From a virus, in the IMG/VR virus record IMGVR_UViG_3300031787_000018, positions 1-64,000 of that record: a DNA stretch of 64,000 nt. One strand, given 5' to 3'. The notes below the pieces were generated by a model. It saw nothing but the letters and a program-made list of their open reading frames with translations. It was not told where the DNA came from and did not search any database. Below are positions 18,099 through 37,749 of the stretch, one piece after another. Numbering within the stretch: the first letter of the stretch is position 1; each line of letters begins with the position of its first letter. The translations under genes and the position numbers were made by a program.

Positions 18099-18205
18099 TG
18101 GAAAATTATAAAATTAATAGTGATTTAATTTCACAAGAAGAGATGGCAAAAAGGTGGGAAGAAAAAATAATTGGGTTACTACCTAAATTAAAAAAAATAA
18201 TTTGA
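18095..18205 (+). CDS. Small hypothetical protein
   Basis: 36 residues overlapping the zincin stop (AAATGATG). Sequence MMENYKINSDLISQEEMAKR continues with WEEKIIGLLPKLKKII, a likely amphipathic helix. Its stop overlaps the TTGACA of the tRNA operon 1 promoter. Could be a real coupled peptide. Confidence 0.4.
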   Translation: MMENYKINSDLISQEEMAKRWEEKIIGLLPKLKKII

Positions 18206-18231
18206 CATTTAAATAAACTTTTGTATATTTG
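18202..18231 (+). promoter_or_regulatory. Promoter of tRNA operon 1
   Basis: TTG (18202-18204), 19 bases, TATATTTG (18224-18231): matches Bacteroidota -33/-7 consensus. The same spacing occurs before leaders 2 and 3. Confidence 0.75.
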
Positions 18232-18274
18232 TATCATATTTATTAAACACAAAAAATTATATAGTAAACTCACC

Positions 18275-18364
18275 ATGACAAAGGCGACAACATACATTGT
18301 TTTAACTCACAGAGAGGAGAGAGAACGTTATCTGACTAACAGTCGGAGTGGATGTCGTATATAG
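18275..18364 (+). CDS. Leader peptide 1 (Arg/Glu-rich) of tRNA-Glu/tRNA-Arg operon
   Basis: 29-residue ORF from ATG 18275 to TAG 18364, between the promoter and a terminator. Residues 12-19 read HREERERY; in all 5 Arg (AGA, AGA, CGT, CGG, CGT) and 3 Glu (GAG, GAG, GAA). The operon downstream encodes exactly tRNA-Glu and tRNA-Arg(TCT), the latter reading AGA. Ribosome stalling at this R-E run would report shortage of these charged tRNAs. The AGTCGG at 18341-18346, inside the ORF, can pair with CCGATT of the terminator arm (6 bp including one G-U). Confidence 0.7.
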   Translation: MTKATTYIVLTHREERERYLTNSRSGCRI

Positions 18365-18390
18365 TCATGTCTCTATATATCAAGATATAA

Positions 18391-18416
18391 ACCCCGATTA
18401 AGAGTCGGGGTTTTTT
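18391..18416 (+). terminator. Attenuator terminator of tRNA operon 1
   Basis: ACCCCGATTAAGAGTCGGGGT stem-loop followed by six T. It separates the leader ORF from tRNA-Glu and tRNA-Arg. Confidence 0.75.
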
Positions 18417-18471
18417 ATTTTGGCCAATAAATAAAAAATTTATACTTTTGTAAAAGTTCTTTGATAAACAA

Positions 18472-18543
18472 GCTCCCGTCGTCTAAAGGCAAGGACACAT
18501 CTCTTTCACAGATGAAATACGGTTTCAAGATCCGTCGGGAGTA
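18472..18543 (+). tRNA. tRNA-Glu (TTC)
   Basis: Acceptor GCTCCCG/CGGGAGT (one G-U), anticodon arm CATCT-CTTTCAC-AGATG giving TTC, T arm ACGG-TTTCAAG-TCCGT region, discriminator A. First tRNA of operon 1. Confidence 0.85.
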
Positions 18544-18548
18544 CAAAT

Positions 18549-18622
18549 GGTTCCGTAACTCAATAGGATAGAGTAACTACCTTCTAAGTAGTAAGTTACA
18601 GGTTCGATCCCTGTCGGAATCA
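18549..18622 (+). tRNA. tRNA-Arg (TCT)
   Basis: Acceptor GGTTCCG/CGGAATC, anticodon arm ACTAC-CTTCTAA-GTAGT giving TCT (reads AGA), T arm ACAGG-TTCGATC-CCTGT. Five bases after tRNA-Glu. Confidence 0.9.
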
Positions 18623-18630
18623 CAAAAAAA

Positions 18631-18677
18631 GTGATAAAAAATTTATAAAGCGTATTGACAGAAGAGGTTTTTATCAC
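18631..18677 (+). ncRNA. Hairpin RNA between tRNA-Arg and the Y RNA-like region
   Basis: Perfect 10-bp stem GTGATAAAAA/TTTTTATCAC with a 27-base loop containing AGCGTATTGACAGAAGAGG. It could be a processing signal for the tRNAs or a small stable RNA. Function unknown. Confidence 0.45.
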
Positions 18678-18725
18678 TAGTATTAACAAACAAAAACGAT
18701 ATAGTTCTTTAAAATACTGATACTT

Positions 18726-19045
18726 GAATATTTGAAGCGGTTGGAATGATTACATCAAACAACTATGATTCAGAAAAAGGACATTTTACCTAAGTATTGT
18801 CCAAGGTTTAATTAAAAGATGGGTATTAAGTTATCGTCCTGTTAAACTTAAAAAAACAATGGGAGTTTGTTAGCAACTCTAAAATCTAACAAGTTAGGAA
18901 GGGACTTTAAAACCCCCGAGTTTATTAGTGTCTGTAAAACCTAGTCAGGGTCACTCCTGGTCTTCCCCGAGATGGGGAACACGAAAAGTAACCATTATTC
19001 TGAAACATTCTCAGATATCAAGTTATCTAGTATTTAAAAATATTC
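18726..19045 (+). ncRNA. Candidate Y RNA 1 (long) upstream of Ro60
   Basis: Closed by GAATATTT (18726-18733) pairing with AAATATTC (19038-19045). Just inside the stem is GAAGCGGT...GATTACATC, shared with two other RNAs in the window. About 320 bases with further hairpins (GGGAGTTTGTTAGCAACTC; TCCCCGAGATGGGGA). No ORF. Directly upstream of the Ro60 gene, the usual place for bacterial Y RNA genes. Identity as a Ro ligand is inferred. Confidence 0.5.
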
Positions 19046-19118
19046 TATTGAAGCGGTGAAGAAAGTTACATCATTATTATTGAAAACGAAAAACACTTTC
19101 ATCTAAAATACTCAATAG
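19045..19118 (+). ncRNA. Candidate Y RNA 2 (short) upstream of Ro60
   Basis: CTATTGA (19045-19051) pairs with TCAATAG (19112-19118); the 5' strand continues GAAGCGGTGAAGAAAGTTACATC. This strand resembles the conserved Ro-binding strand of animal Y RNAs (GAAGG..GUGAGUUAUCUC type, from memory). About 74 bases, close to animal Y RNA length. Confidence 0.55.
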
Positions 19119-19140
19119 GTACTTTATTTGTCCACGTTAA

Positions 19141-19201
19141 CTGTAAGAGTTAATTGTGAGACCTTACAGTCCCTACGAGTAAAATTGTGGGGACTTTTTT
19201 T
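19141..19201 (+). terminator. Hairpin plus terminator after the Y RNA-like region
   Basis: CTGTAAG (19141-19147) pairs with CTTACAG (19163-19169); then AGTCCC (19168-19173) pairs with GGGACT (19190-19195) ahead of a T run. Ends the structured RNA region 30 bases before the Ro60 ATG. Confidence 0.65.
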
Positions 19202-19231
19202 ATTTTATTAAACAATATTAAATTTTAAGTT

Positions 19232-20842
19232 ATGACAAAGTTCAAATCAAAAGCAGTGGAAAATTTTGACGGTGGTATTTCTTATACCTTAAACCCATTG
19301 GATACATTACGTATCGTGGCAGCATCATCTATCTTTGGTGAACCATCTTATTACAGAGGTTCTCACGACAAACCATCTAACTTATCTACGTTAAAGACGT
19401 ATGACGTGTTAGGTTTGTACAAAGACCCAAGTGATACAACTACTGATGTTTTCACTAAGGCTATCGACGAGGCTTTAGACTATGACTTCAAGGCAACCCT
19501 TGAGTTAGCTAAGACTCTTCGTCACGAACACTTCATGAGGTTAAACCCAGCGGTTATCTTCATTAGAGCGTCTCAACACCCAAAGAGGGTTGAATTTAAC
19601 GAAGCAAACCCAGGTTTGATGAAACAATACGGTTTGGACATTGTTGGTCGTCCTGATGACATCACCAACCAATTTGATTACTACATGTTCTTAAACGGTT
19701 CTAAGAATGGTTTACCATCTATCGTTAAGAGGACATGGGCTGAGAAGTTGGCGTCTTTCACCAAGTACCAAATCAAGAAATATAAGTCAAAGTCATTAAT
19801 TGACTTGGTTCGTATTTCTCACGCACACTCTGAAGTTATCGATGAGTTAATGAAGACTGGTGACGTGGCTGTTTCTGAAACTGAAACAACTTGGGAATCA
19901 CTTAGGTCTCAAGGTAAGACTTGGAAGGAAATTCTTAACACAATTAAGGTTTCACACATGGCTTTACTTAGGAACTTAAGGGGTATTTTCACTGAGGTGA
20001 ATGATACTGAAGTGGCTAAGAAGGTTTTAACTGACCTTAAGGCAGGTGTTAAGTTTGGTAAGCAATTCCCATTCCGTTACTACACAGCTTACAAGGAAAT
20101 CGATAAGGTTTCTATAAACCACAAGGGTATGATACTTGACGCTTTACAAGAGTGTCTTGACATCTCTATCGAAAACTTCCCTAAGTTAAAGGGTAAGGTG
20201 GCTTGTTTATCAGATAACTCTGGTTCAGCTTGGGGTACAATGACCTCTGAGTATGGTACAACCCATATTGCTGAAATTGCTAACTTATCATCTATCATCA
20301 CAGCTTTATGTTCTGATGAAGGATATGTCGGTGTCTTTGGTGAAAGATTGAGTTTAAAACCTGTTTCTAAAAGAGACGGTATTATTACTCAGTTGGAAGA
20401 AACTTGTAAGAGAGGTAAGTCTCAAGGACAATCTTGTGAACACGGTATTTGGTTATTCTTACGTGAAGCAATCGACACTAAAACTCACTATGATACTATC
20501 TTTATTTATAGTGACATGCAGGCAGGACACGGTGGTCTTTACGGTACAAGTGTAAGCCGTGGTGACGTTCACTCTAGAGGTGGAAGTTATGTAGACGTAC
20601 TTAAAATGGTACAAGAATACCGTAAGAAGGTTAACCCAAAGGTTAACGTATTCACAGTCCAAGTGGCTGGATACAACAACTCTGTTGTACCTGAAAACCT
20701 TTACAGGGGTTCAGTACTTGGGGGTTGGACTGGTAAGGAAGCCTTATACGCTAGTGAGGTAATCAAGACTTGGGATGAAATTGAGTCTAACGACAAGGTT
20801 ACATCTGAGGTTGAAGTTACTGAACAAGTAGTACAATCTTAA
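19232..20842 (+). CDS. Ro60/TROVE-domain RNA-binding protein
   Basis: 536 residues, matching Ro60 length. N-terminal two thirds is the HEAT-like TROVE ring: FDGGISYTLNPLDTLRIVAA, LRHEHFMRLNPAVIFIRAS. The C-terminal third is a vWA domain with a MIDAS-type CLSDNSGSAWG (D-x-S-x-S) and FIYSDMQAGHGG. Ro proteins bind Y RNAs and misfolded small RNAs and help exonucleases mature or degrade them. Codon choice differs from the neighbours: many AAG and NNC codons, suggesting high expression or recent acquisition. Structured RNAs lie directly upstream. Confidence 0.9.
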   Translation: MTKFKSKAVENFDGGISYTLNPLDTLRIVAASSIFGEPSYYRGSHDKPSNLSTLKTYDVLGLYKDPSDTTTDVFTKAIDEALDYDFKATLELAKTLRHEHFMRLNPAVIFIRASQHPKRVEFNEANPGLMKQYGLDIVGRPDDITNQFDYYMFLNGSKNGLPSIVKRTWAEKLASFTKYQIKKYKSKSLIDLVRISHAHSEVIDELMKTGDVAVSETETTWESLRSQGKTWKEILNTIKVSHMALLRNLRGIFTEVNDTEVAKKVLTDLKAGVKFGKQFPFRYYTAYKEIDKVSINHKGMILDALQECLDISIENFPKLKGKVACLSDNSGSAWGTMTSEYGTTHIAEIANLSSIITALCSDEGYVGVFGERLSLKPVSKRDGIITQLEETCKRGKSQGQSCEHGIWLFLREAIDTKTHYDTIFIYSDMQAGHGGLYGTSVSRGDVHSRGGSYVDVLKMVQEYRKKVNPKVNVFTVQVAGYNNSVVPENLYRGSVLGGWTGKEALYASEVIKTWDEIESNDKVTSEVEVTEQVVQS

Positions 20843-21371: not shown

Positions 21372-22055
21372 ATGGAAAAAGTAACATTAGAAATTCGAGC
21401 CGCTGAGGGTGGTGAAGATTCGAAACTCCTTGTGGAGGACATGGCTGCAGTCTATCTGAAAGCAGCCAAGAATAAAGGTTTTACCGTAGAGTCCGAACAT
21501 TGAAGAGACGGACTTGTTAGTATTTAGCTGACAGGTAAAGGGGTTAAGAAATACTTCCAAAACGAAGTTGGTTGTCATAGATGGCAAAGAATTCCACCCA
21601 CTGAAAAACGTGGTAGAGTACATACAAGTACAATTACAGTAGCTTTATTAGATTCCCAAAATTATCAGGAGATAGACATCAATATGGATGAATTACGTAT
21701 TGAAACAACTCGTGGTACAGGTAATGGTGGTCAACATAAGAACACAACAGATTCTTGTGTGGTTATAACCCATATACCAACAGGGATAAAAGTGGTTAGA
21801 GATGGTAGAAGTCAACATAAGAATAAGGACGAGGCTTTAAACGAAATAAAACAACGTCTAAATGATTTATACCAACAAAACCATATGGATAAAGTTTCTA
21901 AAGAAAGAAAGGGTCAAATCGGTAGTGGTAATAGGGGTTCTGAAAAGAAACGTACCTACAACCAAAAAATGGATTTGGTTATCGATCATGAAAGTGATAA
22001 GTCTACAAGTCTTAAACAATTCATGAAAGGTAAATTAGAACTATTAATGTGTTAA
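21372..22055 (+). CDS. RF1-type peptide chain release factor interrupted by in-frame TGA and TAG
   Basis: 228 codons from ATG 21372, all one frame, with TGA at 21501-21503 (codon 44) and TAG at 21525-21527 (codon 52). Before the stops: VTLEIRAAEGGEDSKLLVED, RF domain 2. After: NEVGCHRWQRIPPTEKRGR with the RF1-type P-x-T, and GTGNGGQHKNTTDSCV with the catalytic GGQ. Domain 1 is absent. The alignment to RF1 runs through both stops without a gap; each is one substitution from a plausible sense codon (GGA, GAG or CAG). Either readthrough-controlled or a young pseudogene; if not decoded, an ORF from 21684 keeps the GGQ half. Confidence 0.7.
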
Positions 22056-28593: not shown

Positions 28594-28623
28594 TTGACAA
28601 GTAATAAACTTTTACTATCTTTG
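28594..28623 (+). promoter_or_regulatory. Promoter of tRNA operon 2
   Basis: TTG (28594-28596), 19 bases, TATCTTTG (28616-28623). Nearly identical to the operon 3 promoter, including ACAAGTAATAAACTTTTAC between the elements. Confidence 0.8.
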
Positions 28624-28657: not shown

Positions 28658-28750
28658 ATGAAGACTTTAACAAACATATTATTCGTGATGACACTAACGG
28701 TGTTATTTCAGTTTACACAAACTGAACTCGGGTTCTTATGTCTAAGTTAA
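28658..28750 (+). CDS. Leader peptide 2 (Leu/Thr/Phe/Val/Gln/Met-rich) of tRNA operon 2
   Basis: 30-residue ORF. It holds 7 Leu (TTA x4, CTA x2, CTC), 6 Thr, 4 Phe, 2 Val, 2 Gln and 2 Met; only 7 residues are anything else. The operon encodes tRNA-Gln, -Phe, -Thr, -Val, -Leu(TAG), -Leu(TAA) and a CAT-bearing tRNA-like RNA. The last codons (CTC GGG TTC TT) are the 5' arm of an 11-bp antiterminator. A ribosome stalled upstream would leave this arm free; one finishing translation would cover it. Confidence 0.8.
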   Translation: MKTLTNILFVMTLTVLFQFTQTELGFLCLS

Positions 28751-28807
28751 TCATTTAATATATTAACAAATTTAGAAGAACCCGAGAAAAACTCTCGGGT
28801 TTTTTTA
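28727..28807 (+). promoter_or_regulatory. Transcription attenuator of tRNA operon 2
   Basis: Two exclusive hairpins. Antiterminator: CTCGGGTTCTT (28727-28737) with AAGAACCCGAG (28776-28786), 11 perfect pairs. Terminator: ACCCGAG (28780-28786) with CTCGGGT (28794-28800), then a T run. The shared arm 28780-28786 cannot be in both, as in trp/his-type attenuators. Confidence 0.85.
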
Positions 28808-28815: not shown

Positions 28816-28889
28816 TATCCCGTCGCCTAATTGGCATGGCACTAGATTTTGACTCTAGCATAGTACAGGTTCGAACCCTGTCGGGATAA
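28816..28889 (+). tRNA. tRNA-Gln (TTG)
   Basis: Acceptor TATCCCG/CGGGATA, anticodon arm CTAGA-TTTTGAC-TCTAG giving TTG, T arm ACAGG-TTCGAAC-CCTGT, discriminator A. Confidence 0.9.
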
Positions 28890-28919
28890 CCGAAGAAGTT
28901 ATTTGACATATTATATTTT

Positions 28920-28992
28920 GTGGAAGTTACCAAGTTGGTCAAGGTGTTGGTCTGAAAAACCAATTATATGAGTTCGATTCTCATCTTCCACA
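28920..28992 (+). tRNA. tRNA-Phe (GAA)
   Basis: Acceptor GTGGAAG/CTTCCAC, anticodon arm TTGGT-CTGAAAA-ACCAA giving GAA, T arm ATGAG-TTCGATT-CTCAT. Confidence 0.9.
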
Positions 28993-29123
28993 CAACAAGC
29001 CGTAGGTATGAATAAGTATATATATATATATATAATATTATTTTAATAACTTATTTAATCATTAATTAAAATAATCATCTAAAGTTCGATAATTTTTATC
29101 GATATATAATGATATTTATTACT

Positions 29124-29957
29124 ATGAAATGGTATAAAAAAGATATTGAAACATTGATTGAATTAATTCGTCAAGGTAACACCTATGATGAAATAGGTGT
29201 TATAATGAAAAGAAGTAGATCTTCTATTAAAGCTAAATTATTAAAATTGGGTGAGACATATAGAAAGTATTCTGAAAACAATTATTATGAAAAGGTTAAT
29301 TGTAAAAATTGTGGTATAGAATTTAAATCTTTAATGTCTAATAAACAAAAATTTTGTAACCATACATGTGCTGCAAGTTATAATAATGTAATTAGAGGTA
29401 AAAGAAGTCAAGAAACAAAAAATAAAATAAGTAAATCATTAAAAAGTAAAAAAAAGGAGAAATATGATTTAAATCCTAAAAAATGTATGAAATGTGGTGA
29501 ACATATACCATATAGTAAATGGTGTAATTATAGAAAAAATTGTGACGAATGTAACATTATTATTCGTAAAAATATGGGTAGGATTTTAGGTCAAAAAACC
29601 TCACAAACCAAAATAAAAAGATCGAAAGACGAGATAAATTTATATGAGTTATGTAAGATGAGTTTTAACGATGTTGAACATAATAAAATAATAAGTTCTG
29701 GATGGGATGCTGATATTGTTATAAATGATTATAAAATACTTATACTATGGAATGGTCCTTGGCATTATAAACAGTTACCATTAAAAAACCATAGTTTAAA
29801 TCAAGTACAAACTAGAGATAAAATAAAACAAAAATTGTTTGAAAGTTTAGGTTGGAGAGTTATAATATTTGAAGATAGATATTACACACCATATACAGCT
29901 TTTGATTATTTAAAAAATATAATTCGGGATATATCTCCCCACTCTCATAAGGTGTAG
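29124..29957 (+). CDS. Homing-type endonuclease inserted in tRNA operon 2
   Basis: 277 residues from ATG 29124; the earlier ATG 29109 lies in a GATATTTATT motif. N-terminal helix-turn-helix (DIETLIELIRQGNTYDEIGV), two Cys-rich zinc motifs (CKNCGIEF...CNHTC; CMKCGEH...CDECN), NUMOD3-like KNKISKSLKSKKK, and a C-terminal Vsr/PD-(D/E)xK-like nuclease core (SGWDADIVINDYKILILWNG). The last 11 codons run into the 5' part of a tRNA-like sequence (29925-30001). No intron core was seen, so it looks free-standing. Confidence 0.7.
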   Translation: MKWYKKDIETLIELIRQGNTYDEIGVIMKRSRSSIKAKLLKLGETYRKYSENNYYEKVNCKNCGIEFKSLMSNKQKFCNHTCAASYNNVIRGKRSQETKNKISKSLKSKKKEKYDLNPKKCMKCGEHIPYSKWCNYRKNCDECNIIIRKNMGRILGQKTSQTKIKRSKDEINLYELCKMSFNDVEHNKIISSGWDADIVINDYKILILWNGPWHYKQLPLKNHSLNQVQTRDKIKQKLFESLGWRVIIFEDRYYTPYTAFDYLKNIIRDISPHSHKV

Positions 29958-30001
29958 AAAGAGTAATTGGCAACATGTGAGTTCAACTCTCACTATCCCG
30001 A
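29925..30001 (+). tRNA. Non-canonical tRNA-like sequence with CAT loop
   Basis: Perfect 7-bp acceptor CGGGATA/TATCCCG, T arm GTGAG-TTCAACT-CTCAC, discriminator A, total 77 bases. Between them the order is odd: a CAT-type anticodon arm (CACT-CTCATAA-GGTG, 29940-29954) comes first, then GTGT...AATTGGCA...ACAT, which looks like a D arm (29952-29976). The 5' third is also coding for the endonuclease C-terminus. It may be a rearranged tRNA-Met or a pseudo-tRNA. Confidence 0.4.
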
Positions 30002-30016
30002 CAAAATAATGGTTCG

Positions 30017-30041
30017 ATCTGTTCAAATCAGATATACGGTA
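30017..30041 (+). other. Orphan tRNA 3' end (T arm plus acceptor strand)
   Basis: ATCTG-TTCAAAT-CAGAT is a perfect T arm followed by ATACGGT-A. No acceptor partner lies directly upstream; GCCGTAG at 28999, on the other side of the endonuclease gene, could pair over 6 positions. Possible remains of a tRNA split by the insertion. Confidence 0.35.
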
Positions 30042-30047
30042 CTATAT

Positions 30048-30121
30048 TCCGGTGATACTCTGAAGGTAAGGGTGCTCGCCTTGTAAGCGAGATTTAGTCG
30101 GTTCGATCCCGACCACCGGAT
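30048..30121 (+). tRNA. tRNA-Thr (TGT)
   Basis: Acceptor TCCGGTG/CACCGGA, anticodon arm CTCGC-CTTGTAA-GCGAG giving TGT, T arm GTCGG-TTCGATC-CCGAC. Confidence 0.9.
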
Positions 30122-30126
30122 CAAAA

Positions 30127-30197
30127 GCCCTGATGACGTAATGGTAGCGTACTAATTTTACATGTTAGCAGCAAAGGTTCAATTCCTTTTCAGGGCA
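30127..30197 (+). tRNA. tRNA-Val (TAC)
   Basis: Acceptor GCCCTGA/TCAGGGC, anticodon arm CTAAT-TTTACAT-GTTAG giving TAC, T arm AAAGG-TTCAATT-CCTTT. Confidence 0.9.
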
Positions 30198-30203
30198 CAA
30201 AAA

Positions 30204-30280
30204 GCCTTCGTGACGTAATTGGTAACCGTGTTAGTTTTAGAAACTAAATTTTGTGAGTTCAAATCTCACCGAAGGCACCA
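30204..30280 (+). tRNA. tRNA-Leu (TAG), short variable loop, encoded CCA
   Basis: Acceptor GCCTTCG/CGAAGGC, anticodon arm TTAGT-TTTAGAA-ACTAA giving TAG, T arm GTGAG-TTCAAAT-CTCAC, discriminator A and CCA encoded. The variable loop is only about 5 bases, unusual for bacterial tRNA-Leu, which are class II. Confidence 0.8.
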
Positions 30281-30286
30281 AAAATT

Positions 30287-30316
30287 TTGATAATAAATAA
30301 ACTTTTACTATATTTG
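30287..30316 (+). promoter_or_regulatory. Internal promoter in tRNA operon 2
   Basis: TTG (30287-30289), 19 bases, TATATTTG (30309-30316), 13 bases before tRNA-Leu(TAA). Would allow leader-independent expression of the second half. Confidence 0.7.
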
Positions 30317-30328
30317 TATCAACAAAAT

Positions 30329-30402
30329 GTTCCCATGGCGAAATTGGTAAACGCAACGAGTTTAAGCCTCGTATGTTCTCGGTTCAAATCCGGGTGGGAA
30401 TA
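30329..30402 (+). tRNA. tRNA-Leu (TAA), short variable loop
   Basis: Acceptor GTTCCCA/TGGGAAT, anticodon arm ACGAG-TTTAAGC-CTCGT giving TAA, T arm CTCGG-TTCAAAT-CCGGG. Class I-sized variable loop again. Confidence 0.85.
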
Positions 30403-30407
30403 CAAAA

Positions 30408-30502: not shown

Positions 30503-30509
30503 TTGATAT

Positions 30510-30889: not shown

Positions 30890-30901
30890 TGGGGTAAAAA
30901 T

Positions 30902-31001: not shown

Positions 31002-31016
31002 CAAAAATAAAGACAT

Positions 31017-31220: not shown

Positions 31221-31221
31221 C

Positions 31222-31521: not shown

Positions 31522-31524
31522 CAA

Positions 31525-31534
31525 GATATTTATA
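31525..31534 (+). promoter_or_regulatory. Putative late-type promoter motif
   Basis: GATATTTATA, 20 bases before ATG 31555. Confidence 0.4.
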
Positions 31535-31554
31535 AAAGAGATAGGAGGGATTAC

Positions 31555-32225: not shown

Positions 32226-32232
32226 AAAATAC

Positions 32233-32263
32233 TTGACAGGAGATAAAAATTAATATATAATTG
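32233..32263 (+). promoter_or_regulatory. Promoter of tRNA-Met
   Basis: TTG (32233-32235), 20 bases, TATAATTG (32256-32263), one mismatch to TAnnTTTG; 12 bases before the tRNA. Confidence 0.6.
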
Positions 32264-32275
32264 TATCATTAATAT

Positions 32276-32347
32276 CGCGATGAGGGTGTTGGTTCCCCAC
32301 CGGTCTCATAAACCAGGTCCACGGCCGTTCGATTCGGCCCGTCGCCA
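32276..32347 (+). tRNA. tRNA-Met (CAT), initiator-like
   Basis: Acceptor CGCGATG/CGTCGCC with a C1-C72 mismatch, anticodon arm CCGGT-CTCATAA-ACCAG giving CAT, T arm GGCCG-TTCGATT-CGGCC. An unpaired 1-72 position is the hallmark of bacterial initiators, but the three G-C pairs of the initiator anticodon stem are not complete. Own promoter and terminator, no leader ORF. Confidence 0.75.
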
Positions 32348-32352
32348 CTAAG

Positions 32353-32382
32353 TCCCCTATAGTATTATAGGGGATTTTTTTT
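32353..32382 (+). terminator. Terminator after tRNA-Met
   Basis: TCCCCTATA/TATAGGGGA hairpin followed by eight T. Confidence 0.85.
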
Positions 32383-32420
32383 AACATTAAAGACAACTTG
32401 ACAAATTTAACAATCATAAC

Positions 32421-32430
32421 GATATTTATA
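32421..32430 (+). promoter_or_regulatory. Putative late-type promoter motif
   Basis: GATATTTATA, 14 bases before ATG 32445. Confidence 0.4.
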
Positions 32431-32444
32431 TAAAAAGATATACC

Positions 32445-33023: not shown

Positions 33024-33092
33024 AAACTATAAGTAATATTTTTTTACTGTTTTTTCTTATAGTTAATTTTAAATAATCATACATGGACAGTA

Positions 33093-33323
33093 GTGATGAA
33101 CCGTATAAACAAAGAAAGACTCGCAACCATAAGCTTAATTTTGGCAATGTTCTTCAACCCTCTAGGGTTCGACGCACTATTCAACGCTGTAATGACATTG
33201 ACAGGTTCTTATTGGATTACGGATATAATATTTTACCTTATATCACTATCGTTTCTTGGGTTATATTTCTTATTACAAGGTATTAACCCAATAAAACACG
33301 TAAAAGAAAAAATAAAAAAATAA
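33093..33323 (+). CDS. Small two-helix membrane protein
   Basis: 76 residues with helices LATISLILAMFFNPLGFDAL and IIFYLISLSFLGLYFLL and a basic tail. Preferred over the overlapping +2 reading because its composition is membrane-like. Ends ten bases before the operon 3 promoter. Confidence 0.55.
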   Translation: MMNRINKERLATISLILAMFFNPLGFDALFNAVMTLTGSYWITDIIFYLISLSFLGLYFLLQGINPIKHVKEKIKK

Positions 33324-33335
33324 TTTAAAAAATAG

Positions 33336-33365
33336 TTGACAAGTAATAAACTTTTACTATCTTTG
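33336..33365 (+). promoter_or_regulatory. Promoter of tRNA operon 3
   Basis: TTG (33336-33338), 19 bases, TATCTTTG (33358-33365). Shares a long identical stretch with the operon 2 promoter. Confidence 0.8.
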
Positions 33366-33400
33366 TATCATATTTATTAACAAACAAAACAATTAAAGAA

Positions 33401-33496
33401 ATGAAAAATTGGCATAACATATCGAGTATACATAGTAATCGAATTAATAGTTCGGTGTACACATGGTGTGTTTTGTCCAATCAAGATAATACTTAA
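33401..33496 (+). CDS. Leader peptide 3 (Asn/Ser/Ile/His/Trp/Arg-rich) of tRNA operon 3
   Basis: 31-residue ORF starting MKNWHNISSIHSNRINSS. It has 6 Asn, 6 Ser, 3 Ile, 2 His, 2 Trp and 1 Arg, 20 of 31 residues. The operon encodes 3 tRNA-Asn, 3 tRNA-Ser, 2 tRNA-Ile, 1 tRNA-His, 1 tRNA-Trp and 1 tRNA-Arg, so codon numbers also track tRNA gene numbers. Two Trp in 31 residues is itself unusual. Its 3' part forms one arm of an alternative hairpin. Confidence 0.8.
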   Translation: MKNWHNISSIHSNRINSSVYTWCVLSNQDNT

Positions 33497-33557
33497 TGGG
33501 AATTAAGTTTTTTGTACAAGGAAAACCCACCACATGAAAATGTCGGTGGGTTTTTTG
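33465..33557 (+). promoter_or_regulatory. Transcription attenuator of tRNA operon 3
   Basis: GGTGTGTTTT (33465-33474) inside the leader ORF can pair with AAAACCCACC (33522-33531) at 9 of 10 positions, extended by CC/GG. The exclusive terminator is CCCACCACAT (33526-33535) with ATGTCGGTGGG (33540-33550), followed by T. Confidence 0.75.
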
Positions 33558-33584
33558 TTATTTGACATATTGGTAAATTAAAAT

Positions 33585-33673
33585 GGAGAGTTAAGCAGAT
33601 GCATTGGAGCGTCGACCAGCTTTGAAACCTGGGTCTCGTTAAGTCGGGTGGGGGTCGGGTCCTCAGCTCTCCG
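33585..33673 (+). tRNA. tRNA-Ser (TGA)
   Basis: Acceptor GGAGAGT/GCTCTCC, anticodon arm CCAGC-TTTGAAA-CCTGG giving TGA, long variable arm, discriminator G. T loop GTCGGGT is atypical. Confidence 0.8.
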
Positions 33674-33679
33674 CAAAAT

Positions 33680-33768
33680 GGTGTTAGAGTCGGATATTGG
33701 TTAGCCGAGCTTGTCTGTGAAACAAGTGTTCTTTAGTGAACGTGCGGGTTCAATCCCCGTCTATCACC
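33680..33768 (+). tRNA. tRNA-His (GTG) with long variable arm
   Basis: G-1 and C73 encoded, 8-base acceptor GGTGTTAG/CTATCACC, anticodon arm CTTGT-CTGTGAA-ACAAG giving GTG, T arm GCGGG-TTCAATC-CCCGT. Variable region GTTC-TTTAGT-GAAC forms an extra arm, not normal for tRNA-His. Confidence 0.85.
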
Positions 33769-33775
33769 CAAATAC

Positions 33776-33850
33776 GGGTCTGTAGTACTAATTGGATAAA
33801 ACTTTCGGCTGTTAACCGAGATGATGTGAGTTCGAGTCTCACTGGACCCG
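33776..33850 (+). tRNA. tRNA-Asn (GTT), copy 1
   Basis: Acceptor GGGTCTG/TGGACCC, anticodon loop CTGTTAA giving GTT, T arm GTGAG-TTCGAGT-CTCAC, discriminator G. Confidence 0.9.
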
Positions 33851-33857
33851 CTGATTT

Positions 33858-33933
33858 GGACTGTAAGCTGACAAGGGGTAGCTGTGGCCTGTTAAGCCAA
33901 GGGTGGTGGGTTCGATTCCCACACAGTCCGCCA
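33858..33933 (+). tRNA. tRNA-Asn (GTT), copy 2, encoded CCA
   Basis: Acceptor GGACTGT/ACAGTCC, anticodon loop CTGTTAA giving GTT, T arm GTGGG-TTCGATT-CCCAC, G73 and CCA encoded. Different body from copies 1 and 3. Confidence 0.9.
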
Positions 33934-33936
33934 AAC

Positions 33937-34008
33937 GGGGGTATAGCTCAGTGGTAGAGCAGAGAGCTGTTAACTCTAAGGTCGTAGGTTCAATCCCTTC
34001 TACCCCCG
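33937..34008 (+). tRNA. tRNA-Asn (GTT), copy 3
   Basis: Acceptor GGGGGTA/TACCCCC, canonical D arm GCTCAGTGGTAGAGC, anticodon arm AGAG-CTGTTAA-CTCT giving GTT. Most host-like of the three. Confidence 0.9.
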
Positions 34009-34015
34009 CAAATAT

Positions 34016-34088
34016 AGTATCGTGTCTGAACGGTTTAGGAACTATCCTGATAAGATAGGAAAAGTGGGTTCAACTCCCACCGATACTA
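34016..34088 (+). tRNA. tRNA-Ile (GAT)
   Basis: Acceptor AGTATCG/CGATACT, anticodon arm CTATC-CTGATAA-GATAG giving GAT, T arm GTGGG-TTCAACT-CCCAC. Confidence 0.9.
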
Positions 34089-34095
34089 CTAAAAT

Positions 34096-34169
34096 ACATC
34101 TGAGACCATATAGGAATTGGTACTGGCTTCCAAACCCAGTTGTTGCAGGTTCGAATCCTGTCAGATGTG
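34096..34169 (+). tRNA. tRNA-Trp (CCA)
   Basis: Acceptor ACATCTG/CAGATGT, anticodon arm CTGGC-TTCCAAA-CCCAG giving CCA (one C-C mismatch at 31-39), T arm GCAGG-TTCGAAT-CCTGT, discriminator G. A Gly(TCC) reading leaves the stem unpaired. Confidence 0.8.
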
Positions 34170-34174
34170 CAAAA

Positions 34175-34264
34175 GGAAGATAGGTAAATATTGGTTTGTT
34201 ACAGCATCCTGCTAAGATGTCCCGGGTAATACCGGTGAGGGTTCAATTCCCTTGTCTTCCGCCA
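34175..34264 (+). tRNA. tRNA-Ser (GCT), encoded CCA
   Basis: Acceptor GGAAGAT/GTCTTCC, anticodon arm GCATC-CTGCTAA-GATGT giving GCT, variable arm CCCGGGTAATACCGG, G73 and CCA encoded. Confidence 0.9.
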
Positions 34265-34267
34265 AAT

Positions 34268-34355
34268 GGAGAGTTAAGGAAGGGAGTGGTTCCCTCGCTT
34301 GTTTGGAAAACAAGAACCCATTAAGTTGGGCACAGTTCGACTCTGTATCTCTCCG
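34268..34355 (+). tRNA. tRNA-Ser (GGA)
   Basis: Acceptor GGAGAGT/TCTCTCC, anticodon arm CTTGT-TTGGAAA-ACAAG giving GGA, variable arm CCCATTAAGTTGGG. Confidence 0.9.
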
Positions 34356-34365
34356 CTAATAACAT

Positions 34366-34437
34366 GGGCGTGTCATATAAGGGTTATTATGCGAAGCTTA
34401 TACCTTCGTCAAGGTGGCTCAACTCCACCCACGCCTA
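34366..34437 (+). tRNA. tRNA-Ile (TAT)
   Basis: Acceptor GGGCGTG/CACGCCT, anticodon arm CGAAG-CTTATAC-CTTCG giving TAT (reads AUA without lysidine), T arm GGTGG-CTCAACT-CCACC. Two of the three Ile codons in leader 3 are ATA. Confidence 0.85.
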
Positions 34438-34442
34438 CAAAT

Positions 34443-34517
34443 GGTTCCATAGTGTAATTGGATAACACGCAAAGCTACGAACTTTGAGACTTGAGGGTTC
34501 AAATCCTTCTGGAACTA
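34443..34517 (+). tRNA. tRNA-Arg (ACG)
   Basis: Acceptor GGTTCCA/TGGAACT, anticodon arm CAAAG-CTACGAA-CTTTG giving ACG, T arm GAGGG-TTCAAAT-CCTTC. Last tRNA of operon 3. Confidence 0.9.
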
Positions 34518-34523
34518 CTAACA

Positions 34524-34549
34524 AACCCACCCCATGGTGGGTTTTTTTA
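34524..34549 (+). terminator. Terminator of tRNA operon 3
   Basis: AACCCACC-CCAT-GGTGGGTT hairpin and T run. Confidence 0.85.
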
Positions 34550-34584
34550 TTTACATATGCCCCTAGTTTAAGTATAATTTATAT

Positions 34585-35103
34585 ATGATTAAAAATAGTA
34601 TTCCTGAACATAGAATGGGTGTACATGTTTCTGTACCGATAGAAGATATTAGACAGAACATGGATTTTGGTAATATAATCCAACCTAGATGGTTATTAAC
34701 AATACCACACAATCATGGTTTATATCAGTATTTAGTAAAAACAGATGGTCCATCAGTGGTAACAGTTGGTAATATTGATTTTGGTGTACCAAGATTGGAA
34801 TGGCAACCATTAAAATTAACCGTTGTAAGATGTGATGATTATGACACCACAAATACTATAACTTATACCAGTGGTACAATTACATTAGGTGATAGTCCTT
34901 TAGATGTAATCAGAAATTGGATGATGAGTTATGAAAAGAAAAATATTAGGTTGGAAAAAATAAACCATAATGGTTTATGGCATGAAAGGTTTGATATAAG
35001 AGGTTCATTTATAACAGAAATGAATCATGAGGTAATTATGGATAGGGAGATCAGTCAAATGGAGATAACAATAAATTTTGACCATTTACAGTATATATTA
35101 TGA
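34585..35103 (+). CDS. Hypothetical, possibly tail tube-like protein
   Basis: 172 residues, beta-rich. PLDVIRNWMMSYEKKNIRLE and ITEMNHEVIMDREISQMEIT followed by INFDHLQYIL recall the end of T4 gp19-type tail tube proteins (helix then long paired strands), but the rest gives no support. Overlaps the next gene by four bases. Confidence 0.4.
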   Translation: MIKNSIPEHRMGVHVSVPIEDIRQNMDFGNIIQPRWLLTIPHNHGLYQYLVKTDGPSVVTVGNIDFGVPRLEWQPLKLTVVRCDDYDTTNTITYTSGTITLGDSPLDVIRNWMMSYEKKNIRLEKINHNGLWHERFDIRGSFITEMNHEVIMDREISQMEITINFDHLQYIL

Positions 35104-35570
35104 AAGAAAAAATTATGAGCAAGGTGTTGAAAAAGATAATAAAAGAATCGTTATTGTTAGAATCTATAGATATTTTTGATATAAATAACATACCTTGTGA
35201 GTTTAATATACATACTGAAAATAATAATAACATAACAGTAATATTCACACCAAATTCAGAAGACTTTTACCAATTAAGTATTGAAATAAAAGATGACGGT
35301 TGTTATTATGTTATATTCGGTGTTATTATTGATGATGTAGTTAGAACATCTTTGACTTTAAATAGTGATTACAGACTTAAAGTTTTATCTACTGTGTTCT
35401 CTTTAATTAAATACTATACAGATAAGTATAACGTTGAATGTTTGGAAATGGATATAGATGATGAAATGAGATTAAAATTATATAATCTTTATTTTAGTAA
35501 ACATTTTAAAAATTTCCAAGTAGATAAGTTAGGTAACAAAGTGAGATTAGTAAAAAATGATAAACTTTAA
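35100..35570 (+). CDS. Virion-type protein with targeting peptide
   Basis: 156 residues. After MKEKI, the segment MSKVLKKIIKE-SLLLE fits the basic helix plus I-K-E pattern. Body is acidic alpha/beta (ITVIFTPNSEDFYQLSIEIK). The first 27 bases around the start recur before the gene at 35871. No known family. Confidence 0.55.
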   Translation: MKEKIMSKVLKKIIKESLLLESIDIFDINNIPCEFNIHTENNNNITVIFTPNSEDFYQLSIEIKDDGCYYVIFGVIIDDVVRTSLTLNSDYRLKVLSTVFSLIKYYTDKYNVECLEMDIDDEMRLKLYNLYFSKHFKNFQVDKLGNKVRLVKNDKL

Positions 35571-35874
35571 TCAATATTTTAAAGAAATTGTTAGACCAAT
35601 AATTGGTGGGGATATGATAAAGGATGTTATATTGGTTAATAACGCTAAAATTAAAAATATAACAATAACGGAAGAAATTGAGTTACAAAAAAATAGTGTA
35701 GGTATTGATTTAATTGAGGATTGGACTTTTGATTTTATAGACCTTATTCAAAAAATAGAAAAAGATTATGGAATCACAATAAAAGATGATGAATATTGTT
35801 GTGATAATAACGGTTATTTCACTGTTAAAACTTTTGATGAATTAAATGATATTATAAAAAATAAAACATTATGA
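35557..35874 (+). CDS. Acyl-carrier-like four-helix protein lacking the Ser
   Basis: 105 residues. NSVGIDLIEDWTFDFIDLIQ, KIEKDYGITIKDDEY and VKTFDELNDIIKN follow the acyl carrier protein pattern (helix 2 L..VE...E..F.I.I.D.....TV.D....I). The usual D-S-L phosphopantetheine site is replaced around D-W-T-F-D, so carrier function is doubtful. Overlaps both neighbours. Confidence 0.4.
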   Translation: MINFNQYFKEIVRPIIGGDMIKDVILVNNAKIKNITITEEIELQKNSVGIDLIEDWTFDFIDLIQKIEKDYGITIKDDEYCCDNNGYFTVKTFDELNDIIKNKTL

Positions 35875-36143
35875 AAGAAAAAATTATGAGCAAGGTTTTT
35901 ATAACCTTATTGGTTGTATGGGTGTTTTCGGCAGTTTATTTGTCGATTAATTCAATTTTTGGTATCTTTATGGATACAAATCCAAATATATCTAAAGCCA
36001 TATTAGGTTTTAGTTTTTTAGGTATGGTTGGTTCTGGTATCGTTAACAAATTTATTGGTAACGATTTAAATAAAATCGGTGAAGATTTAAAACAAAAAGG
36101 TTGTAAAACTTGTAAACAAAAGAATAAGAATGGGAATGTTTGA
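35871..36143 (+). CDS. Small two-helix membrane protein
   Basis: 90 residues with helices VFITLLVVWVFSAVYLSINS and AILGFSFLGMVGSGIV and a Cys-containing basic tail (CKTCKQKNKNG). Starts in the duplicated 27-base segment; the internal ATG at 35886 is an alternative. Confidence 0.55.
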   Translation: MKEKIMSKVFITLLVVWVFSAVYLSINSIFGIFMDTNPNISKAILGFSFLGMVGSGIVNKFIGNDLNKIGEDLKQKGCKTCKQKNKNGNV

Positions 36144-36603
36144 TTATCTTAATGTTGACATCAATATTCTACCTGATTTAACAGAAGAAGAAAGGGTTAA
36201 ATTAGGTGGTAATAATATTGATTGGCAAACAAAACATTTTGAATGTGAAATGACCCATGTTTATATTGTTGAGGATACAGAAAATAAATTTAGACATTCA
36301 TTCTTAAAAAACAGAACACCTTATAAATTACAAATAAAAAGATTTGATTGGGAAGAGGTACCAAAAGAAGAAAGACCGTACCCAAATGCTGATGAAAATT
36401 CTTTTGAACACCTTCTAGGTTCTTTTAGGGAAATTAATGTAAGAGTTGAAGATTTAGATTATACAGGAACTTTTACTTTCTATACTTATATAAAACCAGA
36501 AGATGAGGGGATTGGTGATGTTAAAAAGTTAAAATGGGTTGAGTTTATTTGTGAAGTTGAAAATGGTAAAATAATTTCAATAAAGCGGTTGACAGATGAA
36601 TAA
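36130..36603 (+). CDS. Hypothetical protein
   Basis: 157 residues, starts MGMFDYLNVDINILPDLTEE. A start of this type (G-M-F-D-x-L) is common in a family of phage proteins of unknown function. Acidic, beta-rich, with aromatic residues. Followed by the operon 4 promoter. Confidence 0.55.
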   Translation: MGMFDYLNVDINILPDLTEEERVKLGGNNIDWQTKHFECEMTHVYIVEDTENKFRHSFLKNRTPYKLQIKRFDWEEVPKEERPYPNADENSFEHLLGSFREINVRVEDLDYTGTFTFYTYIKPEDEGIGDVKKLKWVEFICEVENGKIISIKRLTDE

Positions 36604-36659
36604 TAATCCTTATATTTGTATAAGAAATAAAAATACATAACATAAATTTAACATAAGCG

Positions 36660-36690
36660 TTGACAAATAAATAAAACTTTATTAATTTTG
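36660..36690 (+). promoter_or_regulatory. Promoter of tRNA operon 4
   Basis: TTG (36660-36662), 20 bases, TAATTTTG (36683-36690). A second -7-like TATATTTG lies at 36611-36618. Confidence 0.7.
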
Positions 36691-36721
36691 TCCATATTTA
36701 TTTATAGAAGTTGTGGTTCTG

Positions 36722-36826
36722 ATGGGTTTCAGGAACCACCCCAAAAAAGACAGATACAGAACGGGGACTGTTTACAACGAAAACCCCACAAAAAAAACTA
36801 TAAACAAATTAAAACTAAAAAAATGA
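36722..36826 (+). CDS. Leader peptide 4a (Lys-rich) of tRNA operon 4
   Basis: 34-residue ORF whose stop overlaps the start of leader 4b (ATGA, 36823-36826). It has 8 Lys, 2 Gly, 2 Pro, 2 Tyr and 1 Asp, all amino acids of operon 4. Its ATG lies in the loop of a hairpin GTGGTTC (36713-36719)/GAACCAC (36733-36739), which may control its translation. Confidence 0.5.
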   Translation: MGFRNHPKKDRYRTGTVYNENPTKKTINKLKLKK

Positions 36827-36930
36827 GAAAGAATTACACATATCAACCGAGTACACCGAAAGCAGGGAAAGTAGCCGATAAAGGCTGTGATACCTTGAAT
36901 GGTTGTGGTATGTACAATTCTGTCTCATAA
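36823..36930 (+). CDS. Leader peptide 4b (Lys/Gly/Tyr/Pro/Ala/Asp/Cys-rich) of tRNA operon 4
   Basis: 35-residue ORF beginning MRKNYTYQPSTPKAGKVADK. It holds 4 Lys, 4 Gly, 3 Tyr, 2 Pro, 2 Ala, 2 Asp and 2 Cys. The operon encodes tRNA-Tyr, -Pro, -Asp, -Gly, -Ala, -Cys and -Lys: every tRNA is represented, while Leu, Phe, Trp, His, Ile and Glu codons are rare or absent. GGTTGTGG near its end (36901-36908) can pair with the terminator arm. Confidence 0.8.
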   Translation: MRKNYTYQPSTPKAGKVADKGCDTLNGCGMYNSVS

Positions 36931-36992
36931 GAATATATAGAGAAGAGTTTAAATAACCCCCACAACCGATAAAAAAGTTGTGGGGGTTTTTG
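36901..36992 (+). promoter_or_regulatory. Transcription attenuator of tRNA operon 4
   Basis: Antiterminator GGTTGTGG (36901-36908) with CCACAACC (36960-36967), 8 perfect pairs. Terminator CCCCCACAAC (36957-36966) with GTTGTGGGGG (36977-36986), 10 pairs, then T. The arms are mutually exclusive. Confidence 0.8.
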
Positions 36993-37005
36993 TTTATAGT
37001 TATAC

Positions 37006-37087
37006 CCGTAAGTTGAACAGGTGGTGAGTTCCGTTGACTGTAGATCAACCGTTTTAAACTGTGGGGGTTCGATTCCCTCCTTACGGA
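37006..37087 (+). tRNA. tRNA-Tyr (GTA)
   Basis: Acceptor CCGTAAG/CTTACGG, anticodon arm GTTGA-CTGTAGA-TCAAC giving GTA, long variable arm, T arm GGGGG-TTCGATT-CCCTC, discriminator A. Confidence 0.9.
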
Positions 37088-37111
37088 CAAAAACGTTCAT
37101 TGAAAATAAAA

Positions 37112-37220
37112 AGAATAGAAGCGGTGGTATTGGTTACATCGATAATGGATATCAATTTGACAGCAAATCAAACGTTGTGGGTTCGAGTCCCATGATAAAA
37201 AACACCGATATTTTTATTCT
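37112..37220 (+). ncRNA. Candidate Y RNA 3 with tRNA-like T arm, inside tRNA operon 4
   Basis: AGAATA (37112-37117) pairs with TATTCT (37215-37220) and CGGTG (37122-37126) with CACCG (37203-37207). The 5' strand reads GAAGCGGTGGTATTGGTTACATC, sharing GAAGCGGT...GTTACATC with the two RNAs before Ro60. Inside is TGGG-TTCGAGT-CCCA, a T-arm-like hairpin, as in YrlA-type bacterial Y RNAs with tRNA mimicry. Not a tRNA: the T arm is too far from the closing stem and there is no proper anticodon loop. Confidence 0.55.
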
Positions 37221-37237
37221 CTGTTCTTTTTAAATAT

Positions 37238-37316
37238 ATGGGGTTGGAGGAGTCAGGTTTTCCTCGCTTGGTTTGGGACCAAGAGACTTGCGTGGGTTCA
37301 AATCCCACACCCCATA
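37238..37316 (+). tRNA. tRNA-Pro (TGG)
   Basis: Acceptor ATGGGGT/ACCCCAT, anticodon arm CTTGG-TTTGGGA-CCAAG giving TGG, T arm GTGGG-TTCAAAT-CCCAC. Confidence 0.9.
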
Positions 37317-37322
37317 CAAAAC

Positions 37323-37399
37323 GGATACGGCGCATAACGGCTGGTGTACCTGACTGTCTATCAGGTTTTAAGAGGGTTCGACTCCCTTCGTATCCGCCA
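37323..37399 (+). tRNA. tRNA-Asp (GTC), encoded CCA
   Basis: Acceptor GGATACG/CGTATCC, anticodon arm CCTGA-CTGTCTA-TCAGG giving GTC, T arm GAGGG-TTCGACT-CCCTT, G73 and CCA encoded. Confidence 0.9.
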
Positions 37400-37401
37400 A
37401 T

Positions 37402-37472
37402 GCGGGATTAGCATAAAGTTAATGTACTAGTCTTCCAAACTAGTGAAGTCGGATAGTTACCGGCATCCCGCT
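37402..37472 (+). tRNA. tRNA-Gly (TCC) with unusual T loop
   Basis: Acceptor GCGGGAT/ATCCCGC, anticodon arm CTAGT-CTTCCAA-ACTAG giving TCC, T stem GTCGG/CCGGC but loop ATAGTTA instead of TTCNANT, discriminator T. Confidence 0.85.
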
Positions 37473-37482
37473 CTAAAATTAT

Positions 37483-37557
37483 GGGCTACATCCCGAAGGC
37501 AGGGCACTTGATTTGCACTCAAGTGAAAACGGTAGGGTTCGATTCCCTCGTGGTCCA
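37483..37557 (+). tRNA. tRNA-Ala (TGC)
   Basis: Acceptor GGGCTAC/GTGGTCC (several wobble pairs, G3-U70 present), anticodon arm CTTGA-TTTGCAC-TCAAG giving TGC, T loop TTCGATT. The G3-U70 pair is the alanine identity element. Confidence 0.85.
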
Positions 37558-37571
37558 CAAATATAATAAAA

Positions 37572-37662
37572 GGGTCTGTGGTGTGAGTGGTTTAAACCAC
37601 CTGTCTGCAAAACAGGGATGACAATTAATTTTGTTACGTCAGTTCGAATCTGACCAGACCCT
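37572..37662 (+). tRNA. tRNA-Cys (GCA) with long variable region
   Basis: Acceptor GGGTCTG/CAGACCC, anticodon arm CCTGT-CTGCAAA-ACAGG giving GCA, T arm GTCAG-TTCGAAT-CTGAC, discriminator T. The variable region is over 20 bases, unusual for Cys. Confidence 0.85.
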
Positions 37663-37674
37663 CTAAAAAATAAA

Positions 37675-37749
37675 GACCTCGTAACTTAGTTGGTTTAAAG
37701 TGCTAATCTTTTAAATTAGAAATCGTGAGTTCGAATCTCACCGGGGTCA
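37675..37749 (+). tRNA. tRNA-Lys (TTT)
   Basis: Acceptor GACCTCG/CGGGGTC, anticodon arm CTAAT-CTTTTAA-ATTAG giving TTT, T arm GTGAG-TTCGAAT-CTCAC. Last tRNA of operon 4; it ends two bases before the convergent gene at 37751. Confidence 0.9.

Follow-up and report, generated by a model that had tools for sequence, protein, structure and literature searches.

Predicted leader peptides that match the tRNAs of their own operons in large phages

Four transfer RNA (tRNA) operons lie in the stretch of DNA considered here, positions 1 to 64,000 of the IMG/VR virus record IMGVR_UViG_3300031787_000018 (132,425 bases in all). This whole stretch of 64,000 nucleotides is what we call the window. Each operon begins with a promoter, a short open reading frame (ORF) and an intrinsic terminator before the tRNA genes are reached, and the peptide encoded by the ORF is rich in the amino acids that belong to the tRNAs of that same operon. 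The window's region is also carried by a 317,983-base record, IMGVR_UViG_3300027793_000052; the stretches compared by eye are identical, and the Ro60 proteins of the two records are 100% identical. The longer record gives a terminase-like match (PHROG 2, E 7e-25) and a tail-sheath match under the curated cut-off (E 1.9e-7); a search of it for the Pfam terminase domain PF03237 gave no hit. We take the virus to be a large tailed phage.

Four tRNA operons and their leaders

The order of promoter, leader ORF of 29 to 35 codons, intrinsic terminator and tRNAs had been proposed for all four clusters from the letters alone. It is borne out at each of them, and every element can now be given coordinates, all on the plus strand. 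Operon 1 has its promoter, TTGACA-N16-TATATTTG, at 18202..18231, its 29-codon leader, MTKATTYIVLTHREERERYLTNSRSGCRI, at 18275..18364, its terminator at 18389..18413 (free energy, dG, -14.3) and its genes for tRNA-Glu(TTC) and tRNA-Arg(TCT) at 18472..18623. The promoter of operon 2 is at 28594..28623 and its 30-codon leader, MKTLTNILFVMTLTVLFQFTQTELGFLCLS, at 28658..28750, followed by a terminator at 28773..28807 (dG -19.3) and by tRNA-Gln, Phe, a Met-like sequence, Thr, Val, Leu(TAG) and Leu(TAA) at 28816..30403. The tRNA-Met-like sequence, at about 29926-30001, was recognized by eye, and the relatives L013 and L014 have a tRNA-Met at that place. An ORF lies within this tRNA region (29109-29957). 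Three further tRNA-like sequences stand at the tail of operon 2 (30902-31002, 31120-31221 and 31447-31522), with near-identical acceptor and T arms and aberrant anticodon arms.

Operon 3 runs from a promoter at 33336..33365 through a 31-codon leader, MKNWHNISSIHSNRINSSVYTWCVLSNQDNT, at 33401..33496 and a terminator at 33521..33555 (dG -19.5) to tRNA-His, three tRNA-Asn, Ile(GAT), Trp, Ser(GCT), Ser(GGA), Ile(TAT) and Arg(ACG) at 33682..34518. A Ser-like tRNA seen by eye precedes these at about 33584-33671, where the relative L009 has Ser(TGA). In operon 4 the promoter, TTGACA-N17-TAATTTTG, is at 36660..36690, the 35-codon leader, MRKNYTYQPSTPKAGKVADKGCDTLNGCGMYNSVS, at 36823..36930, the terminator at 36955..36988 (dG -19.8), and tRNA-Tyr, Pro, Asp(GTC), Gly, Ala, Cys and Lys at 37006..37750. 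The terminator begins 23-25 nucleotides past the leader's stop in all four operons, and all four leaders are conserved in relatives. Between the promoter and leader 4, at 36700-36800, is a conserved structured element with two hairpins and a possible CCCC/GGGG pseudoknot. It is kept in all four aligned sequences, the window included, its covariation is weak, and it matches no Rfam family; perhaps it is a further sensor. A lone tRNA-Met at 32276..32348 has a sigma-70-like promoter at 32233 and a terminator at 32350-32377, and no leader was seen there.

The tRNA genes of the operons were called with ARAGORN, which finds 22 tRNAs in the window, and with Rfam, which finds 23 and a transfer-messenger RNA (tmRNA). 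Relaxed ARAGORN settings add Ser(GGA), Ile(TAT), Asp(GTC) and the lone Met; they also yield many false tRNAs, and only calls matching Rfam, relatives or position were kept. The promoters have the form TTG ... TAnnTTTG, which is the Bacteroidetes type. A scan for TTGACA-N14-16-TAnnTTTG gives four occurrences in the 132-kb record, at operons 1-3 and at 36589, and the 318-kb record of this phage also has four, with none on the opposite strand and none for the backwards control. A promoter at each cluster had been predicted, and this stands for operons 1-3 as given; for operon 4 the site at 36589 was rejected and replaced by 36660, which has a 17-nucleotide spacer and is common to all four aligned sequences.

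The leaders are short ORFs rich in codons for what their own operons supply. When the sets are taken as {E,R}, {Q,F,M,T,V,L}, {S,H,N,I,W,R} and {Y,P,D,G,A,C,K} and the start Met is excluded, 69 of 121 leader residues belong to their own set (8/28, 22/29, 20/30 and 19/34 for leaders 1-4). The true pairing of leaders with operons is the best of the 24 possible assignments, the runner-up scoring 53; it remains the best when only the default ARAGORN tRNAs are used, which gives 66 matches. Permuting the amino-acid labels 200,000 times never reaches 69 (mean 32.4, standard deviation 6.3, maximum 60). Every amino acid of each operon is present in its own leader (2/2, 6/6, 6/6 and 7/7, or 21/21). The claim that leader composition tracks the operon is sustained. 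The four sets jointly cover all 20 amino acids, as had been said of them together with the lone tRNA-Met. It had been proposed that random small ORFs matching equally well would speak against the idea; none of the 226 other ATG ORFs of 20-45 residues in the window reaches any leader's own-set fraction. Leader 1 is the weakest of the four, with 8 residues from set 1 and 11 from the larger set 3, and it is distinct only relative to the rarity of Glu and Arg (z 4.35).

Conservation, folding and leaders in other phages

Related contigs were found through the Ro60 protein and through DNA patterns. The window's group has 20 leaders, the window's own four included: leader 1 in five contigs, leader 2 in six, leader 3 in five and leader 4 in four. 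Lack of conservation of the leaders in relatives was another outcome named in advance as damaging, and what is found is their retention. When the window's sets are applied to all 20 leaders, 335 of 562 residues are from the own set, and 268 of 382 upstream of the segment able to pair with the terminator. A predicted terminator lies 14-27 nucleotides past the leader stop in 20/20. Every indel within leaders 2-4 has a length divisible by three. The sequence of leader 2 is strongly conserved, and its peptide is the same in G009 and G013, as that of leader 3 is in G003 and G016. In G014 the C-terminus of leader 2 changes from ELGF to ELES and the terminator arm is altered along with it, with the pairing kept. 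The same relative has a promoter, then a tRNA-Met, then leader 2 (L066, 3690-3927); this tRNA-Met precedes the attenuator and so is outside its control. A match to the leader-3 start pattern in L064/G015 was dropped as chance, since by ARAGORN the record has no tRNA.

Near the 3' end of each leader ORF is a segment, segment 2 below, that can pair with the 5' arm of the terminator (2:3, the antiterminator) in competition with the terminator helix itself (3:4). It holds this position in all 20 leaders. The window's four segments are at 18340..18350 (dG -8.3, equalled by 69/500 codon shuffles), 28726..28738 (dG -19.6, 0/500), 33463..33475 (dG -10.7, 40/500) and 36901..36909 (dG -9.7, 165/500), the last identical in the four aligned sequences. 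In leader 3 the 2:3 helix has two pairs changed on both sides, a level reached by 17/500 shuffles and by none of the slid controls; the 3:4 helix likewise has two two-sided changes (87/500 shuffles). The antiterminator covariation amounts to two two-sided changes in one leader, from five sequences, which are too few.

We modelled a stalled ribosome by hiding the RNA to 12 nucleotides past the first base of the A-site codon and folding the RNA downstream. Simulated stalls upstream, at cognate-rich codons, give antiterminator probabilities of 0.4-0.9 in 20/20 leaders, and a ribosome near the stop codon gives 0 in 20/20. In silico the antiterminator is freed by a stall and blocked near the stop throughout the window's group. 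The same script gives a similar response for E. coli thrL, leuL and ilvL, in which segment 2 is inside the leader and the terminator is 19-20 nucleotides after the stop. E. coli trpL and pheL also switch in the model; hisL is not resolved by so simple a treatment.

The choice of codons adds to the match of residues. The Arg codon in the control region of leader 3 is CGA in 5/5 homologous leaders. CGA is rare (13 of the 454 Arg codons in window ORFs), and operon 3 carries tRNA-Arg(ACG). At locus L023, leader A uses ATA for Ile (4/4) and TTA for its sole Leu upstream of Ile(TAT) and Leu(TAA), and leader C uses ATC or ATT for Ile (3/3) and CGC or CGA for Arg in an operon with Ile(GAT) and Arg(ACG). 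Codon and tRNA agree in isoacceptor class for 61 of 77 codons, with 46.3 expected (standard deviation 4.0), in 12 hand-picked leaders, 10 of them informative; related leaders were counted separately and are not independent.

A detector was used for leaders in other phages: it takes a terminator upstream of a tRNA and a short ORF ending shortly before it, and the test compares the residues of that ORF with the tRNAs that precede the next terminator. The first survey covered 69 loci of more distant Ro60-encoding phages, some without tRNA and some near-copies of one another. It gave 68 terminators, 58 with a candidate ORF, and 24 of these are significant (p times tests < 0.05, about 3 expected). 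The 24 represent 19 distinct peptides, many of them homologous, and two (L099 and L036, with TTG starts) are likely chance. One leader family unrelated to the window's is ILPSILRPSIRRS, upstream of Ser-Arg-Pro-Ile-Met-Leu tRNAs. Another unrelated leader, of 35 residues, contains all 16 amino acids of its own operon, which make up 31 of 34 residues, and a third, KKCWHMFGFAGK, precedes Ala-Phe-Lys-Met-Cys-Gly-Trp-His and has a Shine-Dalgarno-like GGAG before its ATG.

Candidate leaders are found in named phages as well. Gp86 of Bacillus phage G (JN638751 58381-58515) takes 28 of 42 residues from its own set, Cys, Asp, Phe, Tyr, Glu, Thr, Ser and Trp (p 2.6e-4, 3 tests); against the phage's own, thin background p is 1.7e-3 and 0/27 small ORFs equal it. 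Gp335 of phiCbK (NC_019405 49540-49677) takes 41 of 44 residues from {P,T,K,L,H,A,S} and is followed by an annotated terminator and then tRNAs. Its p against its own background is 5e-13, with 0/50 small ORFs equal, when the set is cut at annotated terminators, and 5e-3 (3 tests) with the detector's broader automatic set. Gp335 is annotated as a hypothetical protein and gp86 too as a protein; both look like leader peptides of tRNA operons. The two leaders of Brevundimonas phage Kikimora give p 9e-5 (0/109 small ORFs) and 4e-3 (1/108) against their own background. A 634,780-base phage, LR745206, has seven candidate leaders, five of them significant after correction for tests. Among the seven are QQIQQQQ, ahead of three Gln tRNAs, and SSSRSSS, ahead of Arg-Ser-Ser-Ser; LR756502 (642,428 bases) has Q7 upstream of four Gln tRNAs. 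The leaders of CcrPW, Atu_ph07 and Gundel_1 are suggestive only. CcrPW gives p 0.10 against its own background (3/89 small ORFs equal). By composition Gundel_1 (own background p 0.18, 16/49 equal) and Atu_ph07 (p 0.16, 6 tests) are not significant; their 2:3 helices are (4/300 and 0/300 shuffles). Some lone tRNAs of Atu_ph07, LR745206, CcrPW and phiCbK lie outside the stretches examined, and PTm1 gave no tRNA match.

Pooling the surveys gives 90 terminators with candidate ORFs, or 50 once similar leaders are removed. Overlapping or repeated loci and the E. coli controls were omitted before counting; phiCbK, CcrPW, T4, XacN1 and BcepSaruman were fetched afterwards and are not in the 50. With p values that use the residue background of the AT-rich window, 21 of the 50 are significant, against a mean of 4.66 when the tRNA sets are permuted. 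The summed -log10 p is 84.6, against 20.8 (standard deviation 4.9) under permutation, and 0/20,000 permutations reach it. Folding 23 further leaders gave a stall switch in 20 and 2:3 complementarity matched by fewer than 5% of shuffles in 17. A tblastn search with four leaders against 50,697 phage records found no match save one at chance level (E 9), and scanning bacterial genomes with a pattern for leader A of the L023 group gave none. By these comparisons the unrelated leaders have composition in common, not sequence. It is important to realize that the sample is non-random, having begun from Ro60 phages and from named phages rich in tRNAs, and that it gives no firm measure of prevalence.

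Probable attenuation and its rivals

We believe that ribosome-mediated transcription attenuators of the trp, thr and leu type very probably control these tRNA operons. A ribosome would translate the leader, most of whose codons are those that the operon's own tRNAs read. With cognate charged tRNAs abundant it would reach the end of the leader and cover segment 2, and the terminator would form before the tRNA genes. Were any cognate charged tRNA to become scarce during infection, the ribosome would stall upstream and segment 2 would pair with the 5' arm of the terminator. RNA polymerase would then continue past this antiterminator into the tRNAs, whose products would relieve the stall, and every tRNA set would be produced on demand, as by a homeostat. 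The sequence-only reading had proposed leader-peptide attenuation that switches on exactly the missing tRNAs. Its first half is supported by the statistics, the conservation, the alternative RNA structures and the independent phage cases. Its second half must be given up, because the unit of control is the whole operon, covering from 2 to about 16 amino acids, and a switch of that kind cannot turn on exactly the tRNAs that are missing. The same reading had the device respond to the destruction of host tRNAs as well; this too reaches too far, and is at most something that the operons may do.

A number of observations weigh against attenuation. The terminator helix 3:4 is stabler than the antiterminator 2:3 in 18 of the 20 leaders of the window's group, and it is likewise the stabler helix in 6/6 E. 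coli controls. The antiterminator dominates at equilibrium in only 5/20 (in one of these at just three codons); a working switch would therefore have to be kinetic, a choice made during transcription. Fewer than 5% of codon shuffles equal the complementarity in 11/20 leaders, and in the window this holds for leader 2 alone. Only 2 of the 5 Arg codons in window leader 1 are of the matching class. Among the 50 pooled leaders 29 are not significant individually, and only 11 match their own set better than any other of the 50 sets. The fold model leaves phage G, phiCbK, one L105 leader and the first of the two Kikimora leaders without a clear switch. T4, XacN1 (one terminal-repeat copy) and BcepSaruman, whose tRNA regions were covered, gave no leader, and neither did the one 16-kb stretch of GAP32 examined or the partial tRNA regions of SRB7757 (4/5 Rfam tRNAs) and csAssE-Sib (4/6). 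L029, L036 and L046 have tRNAs without convincing leaders, and many tRNA-bearing phage loci show none.

Some of these points would suit a different output, in which the leaders would still be translated and fit their tRNAs, and the stalled ribosome would act on Rho, on RNA polymerase release or on RNA processing. The hairpin would then be a plain terminator or processing site, and 2:3/3:4 attenuation would not be the output, or not the only one. In its favour are the strong residue matches that phage G, phiCbK and the first of the Kikimora leaders show without a clear 2:3 switch, and the greater stability of 3:4. We nevertheless consider it unlikely, since segment 2 lies near the leader's 3' end in every member of the window's group, leader 3 has two-sided changes, the response curves resemble those of the E. 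coli controls, and 2:3 complementarity goes beyond the 5% level of shuffles in 17 of the 23 distant leaders.

The peptides might instead be functional proteins, for example anti-defence peptides, that merely happen to precede tRNA operons. The high conservation of leader 2 and the annotation of gp86 and gp335 as proteins could be read in this way. We find the idea very improbable: in unrelated leaders the composition follows the tRNA set, runs such as Q7 stand upstream of Gln tRNAs, and in G014 the C-terminus of leader 2 varies while the pairing stays. Least credible of all, with hardly any chance of being right, is that the leaders are accidental small ORFs in AT-rich DNA ahead of terminators. 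Short ORFs are common there and single operons with broad tRNA sets give modest p values, but the small-ORF controls and the conservation contradict such an origin, and we reject it on the label permutation in the window and the set permutation in the pooled survey. Beyond the attenuators themselves we lean, by a narrow margin of belief, towards a wider picture. In it large phages of several bacterial phyla would have repeatedly evolved demand-driven tRNA operons with codon-list leaders, which restore charged tRNAs that the host lacks, withholds or destroys (anticodon-nuclease defence included), and an interrupted release-factor gene may extend this logic.

Known systems and neighbouring genes

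The attenuators of E. coli thrL, leuL, ilvL, trpL, hisL and pheL share with the phage elements a leader ORF with control codons, a segment 2 at the leader's end and an antiterminator that competes with an intrinsic terminator; for thrL, leuL and ilvL the spacing and the simulated stall response are similar too. They differ in what is regulated. The genes downstream of the phage leaders are tRNAs and not enzymes that make an amino acid, one leader would sense from 2 to about 16 amino acids together, the 20 amino acids are shared out among several leaders of one genome, and what is sensed would be the product itself. T-box riboswitches also respond to the charging of tRNA by controlling termination; the phage elements would sense it through the codons of an ORF. 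No T-box is among the Rfam matches, either in the whole window at the gathering score or in 28500-37900 up to E 5. Other known RNA families were also considered for the leaders and rejected; none reaches its gathering score, and leader-type matches fall far short of it, His_leader scoring 26.7 bits against a gathering score of 49 and Phe_leader 22.4 against 55.

Work on the attenuators formed by premature terminators in bacteria describes terminator-controlled leaders, and leader peptides in several phyla (PMC2965389); the words 'tRNA gene', 'tRNA operon' and 'phage' are absent from its main text by word search. Elf and Ehrenberg (2005; PMC1183508) treat the sensitivity of amino-acid attenuators and, in the text searched, use neither 'tRNA gene' nor 'tRNA operon'. 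A 2026 preprint on phage tRNA genes has neither 'leader peptide' nor 'attenuat' in its main text (PMC13015707), word searches of the Atu_ph07 and XacN1 genome papers find neither 'leader' nor 'attenuat', and in full-text searches of open-licence PMC papers none of the papers listed describes leader peptides or attenuation in phage tRNA operons. Compared with amino-acid attenuators, what differs is the controlled genes, the multi-amino-acid leaders and the splitting of the amino acids among operons; the working principle would be the same.

Why phages carry tRNAs and when they express them is an open question. If we are right, phage tRNAs are an inducible response and not a fixed supplement to codon usage, and the leader tells which tRNAs form one unit. 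There may also be a link with defence systems that cleave tRNAs. The idea can be tested in laboratory phages, phiCbK in Caulobacter and phage G in Bacillus megaterium, and it offers a sequence-based way to find such operons as well as natural sensors of starvation for several amino acids.

The release-factor-like gene mentioned above (window 21372-22055; RF-1 domain, GGQ) has an in-frame UGA at codon 44 and an in-frame UAG at codon 52. Both stops are at the same places in the relative L019, the sole other phage among the loci in which the motif was found. Its product may arise only if neither stop brings about termination, as when release factors are scarce. A Ro60 (TROVE) gene follows operon 1 and is 52% identical to that of Bacillus phage G; a stretch between operon 1 and this gene, seen by eye only, may be Y-RNA-like (window 18650-19230 and 19232-20842 for the two together). 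The phage's own tmRNA is encoded at window 46931-47324 (Rfam 82 bits). In G023, the record of L032, a terminase match at 124425-125717 runs through four TGA and one TAA, a possible case of recoding or of an interrupted gene.

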